The position numbers and the translations under genes are program-made. Positions 11,580 to 38,120 of a DNA stretch of 38,120 nucleotides are shown piece after piece. This DNA is from Candidatus Parcubacteria bacterium (GTDB lineage: Bacteria > Patescibacteriota > Minisyncoccia > Phycocordibacterales > UBA2100). The notes under the pieces were generated by a model. That model ran no database searches. It saw only the letters and a program-made list of their open reading frames with translations, and was not told the origin of the DNA. The stretch is from assembly GCA_003599175.1 (NCBI GenBank), contig QZIY01000027.1, positions 1 through 38,120 of the forward strand, given 5' to 3'. Numbering within the stretch: the first letter of the stretch is position 1; every line of letters begins with the position of its first letter.

Positions 11580-12158
11580 TTAGAGCTTTTCTGCCTCTGC
11601 CTTCAGCTCGTTCGCCTTGGCTATCAGTTCATCGGCTTTGGAAAGGAGTGCGGTCTTCTGCTCATTGTCCTCACCAAGTTCGATGTCTCCTTTGCCGATG
11701 AGGTAGTTTCCGTTCTCTATTTCAATCTCCTGCACATTCTCTCCTGACCATTTGATGCCGAAGAATAGACCTGCCTTGAGTTTTAATGTGCCGAAGACCC
11801 ACGCGTTGCCGAAGACCCACGCGTTGCCGAAGACCCGCGCGTTGCCGAAGACCCGCGCGTTGCCGAAGACACACGCGTCGCCGTAGACCTGCGCGTTGCC
11901 GAAGACCTGCGCGTCGCCGTAGACCTGCGCGTTGCCGGAGACCCGCGCGTCGCCGTAGACCCACGCGTTGCCGAAGACCCACGCGTTGCCGAAGACCCAC
12001 GCGTTGTCCTCTACCGACAAGTTCGCTTCTTCTTCGATGTACCCGCCCTTCTCACCCTTTCTCGCGTCACCGAAGTCTTTGAGTGCTTCCACTTGGAACA
12101 GTGGTTTGCCGAACGGAGATACCTTATCTGACTTGATGAGCTTGTATTTGGTATTCAT
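11580..12158 (-). CDS. Hexapeptide-repeat (left-handed beta-helix) protein
   Basis: This protein has 192 residues. Residues 51-122 hold twelve perfect-length hexapeptides of form (N/D)A(W/R/Q/C)V(F/Y/S)G, which predict a short left-handed beta-helix. The N terminus has KPLFQVEALKDFGD and GEKGGYIEEEANLS, as in phage repeat proteins of this sort. The C terminus is a Lys/Glu/Ala coiled coil (ADELIAKANELKAEAEKL) that could trimerise the helix. An early-operon position argues against a fibre role. The function is unknown; such proteins are common in phages without a known job. Confidence 0.75.
   Translation of the reverse strand: MNTKYKLIKSDKVSPFGKPLFQVEALKDFGDARKGEKGGYIEEEANLSVEDNAWVFGNAWVFGNAWVYGDARVSGNAQVYGDAQVFGNAQVYGDACVFGNARVFGNARVFGNAWVFGNAWVFGTLKLKAGLFFGIKWSGENVQEIEIENGNYLIGKGDIELGEDNEQKTALLSKADELIAKANELKAEAEKL
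11791..12006. repeat. Twelve tandem 18-bp repeats
   Basis: The unit CCGAAGACCCACGCGTTG and variants recur 12 times in exactly 216 bp and encode the hexapeptide array. Near-identical end copies and more diverged middle copies suggest recent expansion or contraction by slippage. Confidence 0.9.
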
Positions 12159-17307: not shown

Positions 17308-17472
17308 CTAATACTTCATCCACCGAAGCACGGATCGGCGATAGATTGGCCGTTCGGTCCCCTTCTGTAGCTGCTCAACAATCTGGGAAATGGACAGTCC
17401 CCTCCCCCGCAGCTCCTTGACCGCGAGAATCATCTTTACATCAGGCTTCCGGCCTCTTAGTTTCGTTTCCAT
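17308..17472 (-). CDS. 54-residue helix-turn-helix protein
   Basis: The frame reads METKLRGRKPDVKM, then VKELRGRGLSISQIVEQLQ, the first two helices of an HTH, and ends IYRRSVLRWMKY, the recognition-helix region. It resembles the C-terminal HTH of resolvases. ATG lies 16 bp inside the end of the upstream gene, so the two are coupled. It could be a repressor or activator of the nearby divergent promoters. There is no nuclease or dimer domain. Confidence 0.6.
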   Translation of the reverse strand: METKLRGRKPDVKMILAVKELRGRGLSISQIVEQLQKGTERPIYRRSVLRWMKY

Positions 17473-17867
17473 TTAGGTATAGCGGCAAGTCGCCACCTCG
17501 GTCGTTCTAAGACCATACGCTCGGCCTCGTGATACTGCAAGCTCTTCACCGCACTATGTGGTATACAATCGTACCCTGCCCCTGAAGCGAACGTGAGGAA
17601 CGACCTGAACGCCTTTTCAGCCTTCTTCTGGTAGAACTCTGACAGTTCGTGTCCTATGAAATAGGCGAGGTGATCTTCGGTTATTTCTTCAACGTCCCGG
17701 ATTTTGCAGGTCTTGGCGAAGCGTATGAGTAGCGAGCGGTACTGCCCGGCCTGGTACGGATGTATGCCAAACTTCCATTCAGCGTATTCGTCGATCAGCG
17801 CATAAATCTGGCCCGGCCCCGAAAAGATTTGGAGCATGGACTGATTATTAGTTGCAACATGTCTCAT
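17457..17867 (-). CDS. Orphan tyrosine-recombinase core-binding (SAM-like) domain
   Basis: This protein has 136 residues. IYALIDEYAEWKFGI, YRSLLIRFAKTC, ITEDHLAYFIGHEL and AFRSFLTFASGAGY match the four-helix N-terminal DNA-binding domain of tyrosine recombinases. No catalytic Arg-His-Arg-Tyr domain follows anywhere nearby. It is therefore probably a DNA-binding protein or a relic, not an integrase. RBS-like AAGAAAG precedes the ATG. It is the first gene after the - strand leader terminator, and two palindromes lie in its upstream region. Confidence 0.65.
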   Translation of the reverse strand: MRHVATNNQSMLQIFSGPGQIYALIDEYAEWKFGIHPYQAGQYRSLLIRFAKTCKIRDVEEITEDHLAYFIGHELSEFYQKKAEKAFRSFLTFASGAGYDCIPHSAVKSLQYHEAERMVLERPRWRLAAIPKWKRN

Positions 17868-17941: not shown

Positions 17942-17985
17942 AATAGAAAAGCCCCCGGAGGGCTTGGCGGCCACAACCGGGGGCT
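17942..17985 (-). terminator. Strong intrinsic terminator in - strand leader
   Basis: AGCCCCCGG (17950-17958) pairs with CCGGGGGCT (17977-17985) over 9 bp. Read on the - strand it is followed by TTTTCTATT. It stands before the first - strand gene. Confidence 0.8.
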
Positions 17986-18048
17986 AGATAAGTATCACAT
18001 GCCTCCCTATCCTCTCCCGCCAAGCATGGGGATTACTCCCGAGAGGAT
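17942..18048 (-). ncRNA. Predicted ~105-nt leader or small RNA
   Basis: Transcription from the promoter at 18055-18083 should begin near 18048. The RNA would open with an 8-bp hairpin ATCCTCTC/GAGAGGAT (18048-18041 with 18016-18009), pass a short linker and end in the intrinsic terminator. It encodes no obvious peptide. It may be a regulatory RNA, an attenuator, or an antiterminator like the HK022 put RNA. Confidence 0.55.
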
Positions 18049-18054
18049 GAATCG

Positions 18055-18083
18055 GTATTACCCCTCCCCTCCCCCGCTGTCAA
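18055..18083 (-). promoter_or_regulatory. Consensus-like promoter, leftward
   Basis: TTGACA (18083-18078), exactly 17 bp, then TAATAC (18060-18055). The -35 box is one half of the inverted repeat TGTCAA-CAC-TTGACA shared with the rightward promoter. Confidence 0.75.
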
Positions 18084-18086
18084 CAC

Positions 18087-18114
18087 TTGACAGGAAATTG
18101 CGTAGTATTACACT
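18087..18114 (+). promoter_or_regulatory. Consensus-like promoter, rightward
   Basis: TTGACA (18087-18092), 16 bp, then TACACT (18109-18114). The predicted start is near 18121. It is back to back with the leftward promoter. Confidence 0.75.
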
Positions 18115-18120
18115 GACACT

Positions 18121-18195
18121 AAGCCCGAAGGACGGATTTGAACATCGCGTCCCCGGCATAGCTAGCTACAAGCAGACGCCCCACGGGGCGTTTTT
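18121..18195 (+). ncRNA. Predicted ~75-nt leader or small RNA
   Basis: The predicted transcript carries a hairpin GGACG/CGTCC (18130-18134, 18148-18152), the self-complementary AGCTAGCT, and ends at the intrinsic terminator 18176-18195. It precedes the packaging operon and is the rightward counterpart of the - strand leader. Confidence 0.5.
18176..18195 (+). terminator. Intrinsic terminator in + leader
   Basis: ACGCCC-CACG-GGGCGT hairpin (18176-18191) followed by TTTTT. Textbook form; located 45 bp before the first + gene. Confidence 0.8.
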
Positions 18196-18197
18196 GC

Positions 18198-18234
18198 GTT
18201 ATCCCCACCAATTACGCCCATACTTCCCTACTCT
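18198..18234 (+). promoter_or_regulatory. GTTATCCCC-class promoter, likely leaderless start
   Basis: GTTATCCCCA (18198-18207), 21 bp, TACTCT (18229-18234), then 6 bp to ATG 18241. It begins directly after the leader terminator, so it can drive the operon independently. Confidence 0.65.
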
Positions 18235-18240
18235 TAGGGT

Positions 18241-18390
18241 ATGGCATCCGCAGAAAAAGCAAAGAAACCGCTCTACAAACAGCGCACGACTATCAAGGAA
18301 GGGTTGGCAGAACTCCGAAAGGCATTCAAGAAGGGGTTCAAGCCAATGAACGATAAGGGCATACACAAATCGCCCCGAAAAAAGAAGTAA
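18241..18390 (+). CDS. 49-residue basic protein
   Basis: The product is Lys-rich (MASAEKAKKPLYKQRTTIKE; HKSPRKKK at the end) with a central helix GLAELRKAFKKGF. It is the first gene of the packaging operon and is followed 2 bp later by the next start. No Shine-Dalgarno is visible, and the predicted +1 is the A of ATG. It may bind DNA or RNA. The function is unknown. Confidence 0.6.
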   Translation: MASAEKAKKPLYKQRTTIKEGLAELRKAFKKGFKPMNDKGIHKSPRKKK

Positions 18391-18695: not shown

Positions 18696-18772
18696 CAGAG
18701 CATATGAAAGACTATTCTGACCCCCTCATATAAGAAAGTAATCCACAGCCATTTACCCCTCCCCGGATAAAT

Positions 18773-18798
18773 AATCAATGTAAATCAATTTAATCAAT
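18773..18798. repeat. Three AATCAAT repeats upstream of terS
   Basis: AATCAAT occurs at 18773, 18783 and 18792, spaced 10 and 9 bp, the last overlapping the small-terminase ATG. It may be an operator or a packaging (pac/cos) recognition site. The surrounding 18696-18796 gap has no gene. Confidence 0.5.
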
Positions 18799-36280: not shown

Positions 36281-36300
36281 AGAAAAGCCCCCGTGGGGGC
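36281..36300 (-). terminator. Intrinsic terminator of secreted-protein gene
   Basis: GCCCC-CGTG-GGGGC stem (36287-36300) is followed on the - strand by TTTTCT. A related hairpin CCTGC-CGTG-GCAGG is at 36310-36323. Confidence 0.75.
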
Positions 36301-36350
36301 CTCTCAGAACCTGCCGTGGCAGGAGTTGTAGTATAGCGTGGTTTATGCGA

Positions 36351-36968
36351 TTACCACTGTAGATACTCACCATCGTGGCCATCTACTATATCGAACGACT
36401 TTTCTACCCCGTTGATACTCCCCTTGATAGTCAGGTCGTCCGTAGTGCCAATGTTGTTGTAGTAATGATAGAGGCCACATGTCTTTAGACTATTCCATGC
36501 ATTTCCCCCACAGTTCGGGCCTTCGACATCCGAAGGAGTTAGCACTTCACCATTCCTCGCAACCGTAATTGTACCGTTTTCATCCTCCCACCAGTCGTGC
36601 AACTGGACTATAAATTGTCCGGCGTGATCTTCATCACTTTTCTCGCTAATGAAATTAGCGGTAAGTTTCTTGTTGACCCCAATTCCGTGTTTAGCTGCAT
36701 CTTCTTTCTTACCAGAAAGTGAAGGCCCATTATCTGTTCCGCCGCCCACCACGATCTCTTCTTCCTGCACAGATGTCTTTGTCTCGACAGCATCGAGACG
36801 TGCTTGTAGAGCTTCCACCTGCTGGATGAGAGATAGAAGTTTCTGCAACTCAGCTACCTGGGCAACGAGCGCGTCAATCTGTGCCTGTAGATCGACCGTT
36901 TGCGCCTTTGTTATAGACGGGAACGCGACGACCGCCAAAAGCATTAACCCCACCACGTACTTTTTCAT
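36351..36968 (-). CDS. Secreted coiled-coil protein (host-like moron)
   Basis: This protein has 205 residues. A signal peptide MKKYVVGLMLLAVVAFPSIT with cleavage near KAQ is followed by a coiled coil (QAQIDALVAQVAELQKLLSL), an acidic linker, and a beta domain with two Cys (GPNCGGNAWNSLKTC) and HDWWEDENGTITVARNG. The signal peptide plus QAQIDAL coil is a look I associate with Parcubacterial secreted proteins. It is transcribed alone, opposite to its neighbours, with its own promoter and terminator. It may change the host surface or block superinfection. Confidence 0.7.
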   Translation of the reverse strand: MKKYVVGLMLLAVVAFPSITKAQTVDLQAQIDALVAQVAELQKLLSLIQQVEALQARLDAVETKTSVQEEEIVVGGGTDNGPSLSGKKEDAAKHGIGVNKKLTANFISEKSDEDHAGQFIVQLHDWWEDENGTITVARNGEVLTPSDVEGPNCGGNAWNSLKTCGLYHYYNNIGTTDDLTIKGSINGVEKSFDIVDGHDGEYLQW

Positions 36969-36976
36969 ATGTAAAT

Positions 36977-37005
36977 AGCCTACTCCCCTCCTGTAGAGCT
37001 GTCAA
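36977..37005 (-). promoter_or_regulatory. Promoter of secreted-protein gene
   Basis: TTGACA (37005-37000), exactly 17 bp, TAGGCT (36982-36977), then 8 bases to ATG 36968, so the message is nearly leaderless. Confidence 0.75.
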
Positions 37006-37882: not shown

Positions 37883-38120
37883 TGAAGTACCTACTACTAG
37901 CCATTCTCATATTCGGTTTCGGAAGCGTTGCATTCGCAGCTCCCTATTTCAACTCGACTCGAACCATCATTCCCGAACAGGACAGCGCGTTCGACGTGGG
38001 AACCTCGTCAAAAGCATATCGCACGGGATACTTCGATGAACTCTGCCTTGCCGGGGACTGCCAGACTGCATTCCCTGGTTCATCAGGCGGCGAGGCGAAC
38101 ACCGCAAGCAACCTCGGGAC
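37882..38120 (+). CDS. Tail fibre / receptor-binding protein, 5' part (continues at base 2)
   Basis: ATG at 37882 overlaps the previous stop. The start MKYLLLAILIFGFGSVAFAA is a typical Sec signal peptide with an AFA cleavage box, then PYFNSTRTIIPEQDSAFDVG and a Cys pair (LCLAGDCQ). The frame runs off the window and continues exactly in frame at base 2. A cleavable signal on a main fibre is unusual for a lytic phage. Confidence 0.8.
   Translation, partial: MKYLLLAILIFGFGSVAFAAPYFNSTRTIIPEQDSAFDVGTSSKAYRTGYFDELCLAGDCQTAFPGSSGGEANTASNLG
38022..38120. repeat. Terminal duplicate, right copy
   Basis: Identical to bases 1-99. See the left copy. Removing one copy closes the genome. Confidence 0.95.

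Follow-up and report, generated by a model that had tools for sequence, protein, structure and literature searches.

What is the role of two back-to-back promoters whose predicted transcripts both run into a terminator before any gene is reached? This question is raised by positions 18055-18195 of the window, by which we mean the whole stretch of 38,120 nt that was analysed. Judged from sequence features, a self-terminating early RNA unit may here insulate a separately activated late promoter in the central control region of a Kaiserbacteria-associated phage, a proposal that we advance tentatively and with somewhat less than even confidence.

Phage genome, host and gene layout

The window corresponds to contig C6 in a MAG of 921 kb, and the same genome is found as IMG/VR contig IMGVR_UViG_3300007352_000011, with different rotation and orientation. 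A 99-bp repeat is present at both ends (1-99 and 38022-38120). Since the IMG/VR version crosses this junction without interruption, the phage genome is circular, with a size of about 38.0 kb. The uS3 protein of the MAG has its closest matches (<=82% identity) among records of Candidatus Kaiserbacteria and other Paceibacterota/Patescibacteria, and the GC contents of host and phage are similar (52% and ~54%, respectively). The putative host is thus this Kaiserbacteria-related MAG, an assignment which rests on binning, composition and gene starts poor in Shine-Dalgarno (SD) sites. The MAG uses intrinsic terminators and displays a leaderless signature: 83 of 613 genes carry TANNNT at -12, vs ~9 per position. 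Together with the scarcity of SD sites, this exact 12-nt spacing of TANNNT from the start suggests widespread leaderless starts in this Kaiserbacteria-like MAG.

Gene orientation in the genome diverges chiefly at the 18055-18195 region. Leftward genes, from 17867 down to ~7.8 kb, form the replication arm and encode an exonuclease, a DnaD-like loader and a DNA-polymerase-type exonuclease; the rightward packaging/structural arm starts at 18241 with DUF1599-like, TerS-like, HNH and TerL genes, followed by the structural genes. A preliminary description had placed control of both arms here, which is well supported by this layout and by the recurrence of the right-hand half in relatives. The first genes of the two arms are:

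17457..17867, minus strand: first left-arm gene, 136 aa, without confident family
18241..18390, plus strand: first right-arm gene, 49-aa lysine-rich protein, with the DUF1599-like, TerS-like, HNH and TerL genes downstream

In viral_contigs the 136-aa protein had no match other than the same phage, and it had none in the phages database. An integrase-like fold, suspected by eye, was rejected, as the structural model was poor (pLDDT 54) and had no structural matches.

Divergent promoters and inverted repeat

18087..18114, plus strand: rightward promoter TTGACA-16-TACACT (TTGACA 18087-18092, TACACT 18109-18114), predicted start ~18121
18055..18083, minus strand: leftward promoter-like site TTGACA-17-TAATAC (TTGACA 18083-18078, TAATAC 18060-18055), predicted start ~18048
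18078..18092, no strand: 15-bp inverted repeat TGTCAA-CAC-TTGACA containing both -35 hexamers

These elements are present exactly as first described, and the inverted repeat has a single exact copy in the window. TTGACA is found 10 times in the genome vs 16.7 expected, and two of them within 15 bp stand out because the hexamer is below expectation genome-wide. The repeat is a possible shared operator, where one protein could block both starts.

The two sites differ in predicted strength. This was judged with a -10 matrix for which 130 host genes carrying TANNNT at 11-13 nt upstream of their start served as training set, so that three letters are fixed by selection. On this matrix the rightward -10 ranks 15 of 17,380 sites; its -35 matches at 6/6 positions and it is the top site having a complete -35. 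The leftward -10 ranks 1503 of 17,380 and matches TATAAT at three of six positions, also with a 6/6 -35, and by these scores the leftward promoter is weak on paper. Within the divergent region, a generic consensus scan picked up no elements other than the right promoter and the left terminator. At the leftward position, relatives carry TTGACA-17-TAAAAT or TAAACT. The symmetric design proposed at first does not hold, with a strong right promoter, a weak left one and different leaders.

Terminators of both leaders

Terminators were scored on both strands of the whole window by a thermodynamic, d'Aubenton-Carafa-type d. Positive scores were obtained at three sites only, 17984-17951 (19.7), 36300-36287 on the minus strand (15.1) and 18177-18190 (15.1), with the next at -0.9. 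Two of the three belong to the leaders, each flanked by an outward-facing TTGACA promoter on one side and by the first gene of its arm (ATG 17867 on the left, ATG 18241 on the right) on the other, which bears out the claim that both leaders meet a terminator before any gene.

18176..18195, plus strand: right leader intrinsic terminator ACGCCC-CACG-GGGCGT-TTTT, d 15.1
17942..17985, minus strand: left leader intrinsic terminator, 9-bp stem AGCCCCCGG/CCGGGGGCT then TTTCTATTT, d 19.7, the best of the genome
18119..18161, plus strand: right leader hairpin, by folding

In the preliminary description the T-runs were one letter too long, one T being counted twice at each terminator (GGGCGT+TTTT on the right, GGGGGCT+TTTCTATTT on the left). 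By area alone, we roughly estimate ~5e-5 as the chance that two of three terminators fall within ~300 nt out of 76 kb of strand. This placement and the recurrence statistics given below argue against a very unlikely reading in which these promoters and terminators would be ordinary, leaky and without regulatory function; the weak left -10 lends it some support.

The third strong terminator (36300-36287) lies behind leftward gene 36351-36968, which has a TTGACA promoter-like site of its own at 37000-37005; 36287-37005 thus resembles a self-contained leftward cassette within the rightward arm.

Each leader had also been said to carry an upstream hairpin. On the right this agrees with the stability of the whole leader (z -2.64); on the left a hairpin does form at 18048-18009, while the leader as a whole is unremarkable (z -0.75). 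A tRNA/attP-like piece suspected in the right leader was rejected by ARAGORN. No sequence relative was found for the leaders of the window.

The back-to-back promoters, with a folded leader on either side, recall HK022, where putL and putR produce similar two-hairpin RNAs in both leaders that act in cis as protein-independent antiterminators. The leaders here are unlike those of HK022: comparison of the two detected neither similarity nor a direct repeat between them, each ends in its own terminator, and neither resembles put or matches any Rfam family. Besides, one further strong terminator in the genome leaves little to antiterminate. Put-like antitermination, as raised in the preliminary description, is therefore hardly credible.

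A box and a predicted leaderless promoter behind the right terminator

18198..18208, plus strand: GTTATCCCCAC box, immediately 3' of the right terminator, one of seven box copies
18229..18240, plus strand: TACTCT + 6 nt, -10 of the predicted leaderless promoter for gene 18241
7874-, 8879-, 17299-, 18198+, 22507+, 24744+ and 37009+ (position and strand): copies of the GTTATCCCC box

The 9-mer GTTATCCCC has seven exact copies in the phage vs 0.3 expected, and two elsewhere in the 921-kb MAG, one of which, on C18, is located in what we take to be sequence resembling antisense 23S rRNA. All seven phage copies are oriented with the transcription of their own arm and lie close upstream of a gene start. 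TANNNT follows at +23/24 in five of the seven (null ~0.0005). Of 60 phage genes, just three, including 18241, carry TANNNT at -12, and each of these is found 3' of a GTTATCCCC box. The box is thus a candidate phage promoter element. Because of the box-TANNNT-ATG arrangement at 18241, the right arm very likely possesses a start of its own that does not depend on the TTGACA promoter. The -10 of this box promoter is weak by the host matrix (2.7), which fits activation and equally fits no promoter. A phage activator would be expected to bind the box; none was identified in the analysis, which weighs against a separately activated late promoter.

Other readings of the box were considered. A DnaA-box reading was rejected, as TTATCCACA itself is absent from the window and DnaA boxes leave the orientation unexplained. 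Stoperators of mycobacteriophage L5 are likewise short asymmetric repeats near gene boundaries, oriented with transcription (PMC9283540), as are the GTTATCCCC boxes in seven of seven cases. The L5 sites, however, number more than 20 against seven here, and elongation is halted at them by a bound phage repressor; no repressor was identified for the GTTATCCCC boxes, which in addition stand at a fixed distance from a -10-like hexamer. This fixed distance appears to fit a promoter element better than a stoperator. On the other side of the divergent region, a strong leaderless promoter could not be detected ahead of the left gene, and GCTATCCAC, ~35 nt upstream of it, was discarded as a box variant since no -10 is present at the right distance.

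The promoter-leader-terminator unit in relatives

A TerL search retrieved 45 viral contigs including the phage itself, most of which lack the same early region; TerL alignment against genome_contigs gave no relative. In the pooled TerL relatives, SD sites precede 22 of 519 genes and TANNNT occurs at -12 34 times vs 12 per background position, an SD-poor pattern that matches the host.

L038, L043-L045 and L046 possess, upstream of TerS-TerL, a strong promoter, a leader of 60-85 nt and a terminator CCCCGAAAGGGG-TTTTT, with an extended -10 and leaderless start immediately 3' of the terminator. In L016 and L146/L147, promoter, leader and terminator also stand ahead of TerS, with unrelated leader sequences. 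A strong promoter 30-110 nt upstream of an intergenic terminator was found at eight of 30 non-redundant phage sites vs one of 77 in the host, a count that was made after the visual finding and takes in some of those loci, and in which part of the eight do not stand ahead of TerS. Control windows gave 0 (220-300 nt upstream), 1 (downstream) and 0 (other strand), with 2% for random windows. The rightward unit stands ahead of the packaging genes in relatives and therefore looks like a real early/late gene switch.

A different explanation is that the unit is a gene for a trans-acting small RNA, whose position before the packaging genes is incidental. A promoter and terminator without a gene would fit, and so would the leaders of L038, L045 and L046, which share a hairpin with an identical 8-nt loop AGTGGAGA and stems that have changed yet still pair. 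But this hairpin is known from three distinct sequences only and is absent from the minimum-energy fold of L046; when viral_contigs was searched for the AGTGGAGA leader pattern, just two further matches were obtained, both attributable to chance. The RNA of the window has no AGTGGAGA loop, and the fixed position before TerS argues for cis action. We consider a trans-acting small RNA quite improbable.

Late antitermination has to be weighed more seriously. In lambda, the strong constitutive promoter pR' heads the late operon and is followed by the terminator tR', which is passed with the help of the antiterminator Q, so that the operon is expressed by read-through alone. The tR' terminator is mentioned together with lambda pR' in PMC4604602. 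By analogy, the rightward promoter would drive the packaging operon here, and a phage protein would later permit passage of the terminator. The likeness is considerable, namely a strong host-type promoter (predicted) heading a late operon with packaging genes downstream, a short leader RNA, and an intrinsic terminator directly before the first late gene, all recurrent in relatives; Q-type antitermination likewise requires a terminated strong promoter. Unlike lambda, however, the phage has a leader of ~75 nt and a second predicted promoter 3' of the terminator; such a second promoter is also present in L038, L043-L045 and L046. Neither Q nor a Q-binding site was identified, and no Q- or N-like protein was found among the proteins searched, which comprise part of the ORFs; antiterminators of this kind diverge fast. 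Moreover, L040, whose TerL is 89% identical to that of L045, lacks leader and terminator and keeps the gene promoter. Because the right-arm gene has its own predicted box-type leaderless promoter after the terminator, and because L040 keeps that promoter alone, antitermination is less needed than the preliminary description supposed, and a lambda-type mechanism seems unlikely, while deserving more weight than the small RNA.

The left leader as a possible attenuator

18009..18048, minus strand: left leader hairpin 1, possible anti-antiterminator (growing-RNA folding, ~-16 kcal/mol)
18017..18025, minus strand: antiterminator arm A, GCTTGGCGG, perfect 9-bp complement of 17962-17970
17962..17970, minus strand: antiterminator arm A', CCGCCAAGC, within the terminator loop
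18007..18027, minus strand: tiny ORF MLGGRG overlapping arm A, speculative leader peptide

Folding of the growing RNA predicts an order of structures in which hairpin 1 gives way to the antiterminator once 17962 is made (mean A:A' pair probability 0.99 with the RNA end at 17962-17954), and this to the terminator at full length (0.89). Two 9-bp inverted repeats, as present here, occurred in 1.1% of shuffles. In this prediction from one sequence the left leader resembles a bistable attenuator, and attenuation, one of the mechanisms suggested at first, is plausible for this leader. Attenuators of trp-type amino-acid operons combine mutually exclusive antiterminator and terminator with a leader peptide bearing regulatory codons. 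The left leader is similar in its three mutually exclusive predicted hairpins and a tiny ORF over the switching segment, and differs in that MLGGRG has no run of regulatory codons.

The left leaders of L045, L038, L046, L040 and L142 form an imperfect hairpin of 75-84 nt closed by GGGU:ACCC or GGCU:AGCC, for which no good automatic consensus was obtained among the five. These hairpins are strong and lack a T-run, so conservation of the left terminator is unsupported. They begin right after the -10; an RNA started at the usual sigma70 position would lack the closing pairs.

Proposed order of events

Under the favored reading of an insulating early unit, host RNA polymerase would use the strong rightward promoter early in infection, and the RNA of ~75 nt would fold and stop at 18191-18195, which would keep the packaging/structural operon off at this stage. 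The operon would be read from the separate, phage-activated leaderless promoter (box 18198, TACTCT, ATG 18241), which the right terminator would insulate. The short rightward RNA may act by itself or provide a site for late read-through. Leftward, a weaker start followed by the predicted refolding of the leader between antiterminator and terminator may attenuate entry into the replication arm. The wider claim that, in phages of leaderless-translating Patescibacteria, a structured self-terminating RNA unit at the early/late divide regulates the packaging operon via polymerase/RNA contacts, alongside a class of box-activated leaderless promoters, is distinctly doubtful at present.

In a narrow literature search, we came across no account of how phages of Patescibacteria control transcription. 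A testable layout is offered by the window and the related phages, with terminated leaders behind host-type promoters and late genes on leaderless promoters beside a phage-specific box. If true, it would show how a phage can build an early/late switch where the host makes little use of Shine-Dalgarno sites.

Two other features were noticed in the genome. Gene 11580-12158, which matches the YdcK beta-solenoid family, contains seven copies of CGTTGCCGAAGAC at 11804-11996, spaced by multiples of 18 nt. An AT-rich intergenic stretch at 18739-18796, with TAATCCACA and repeated AATCAAT/TAAATCA, is a possible origin.
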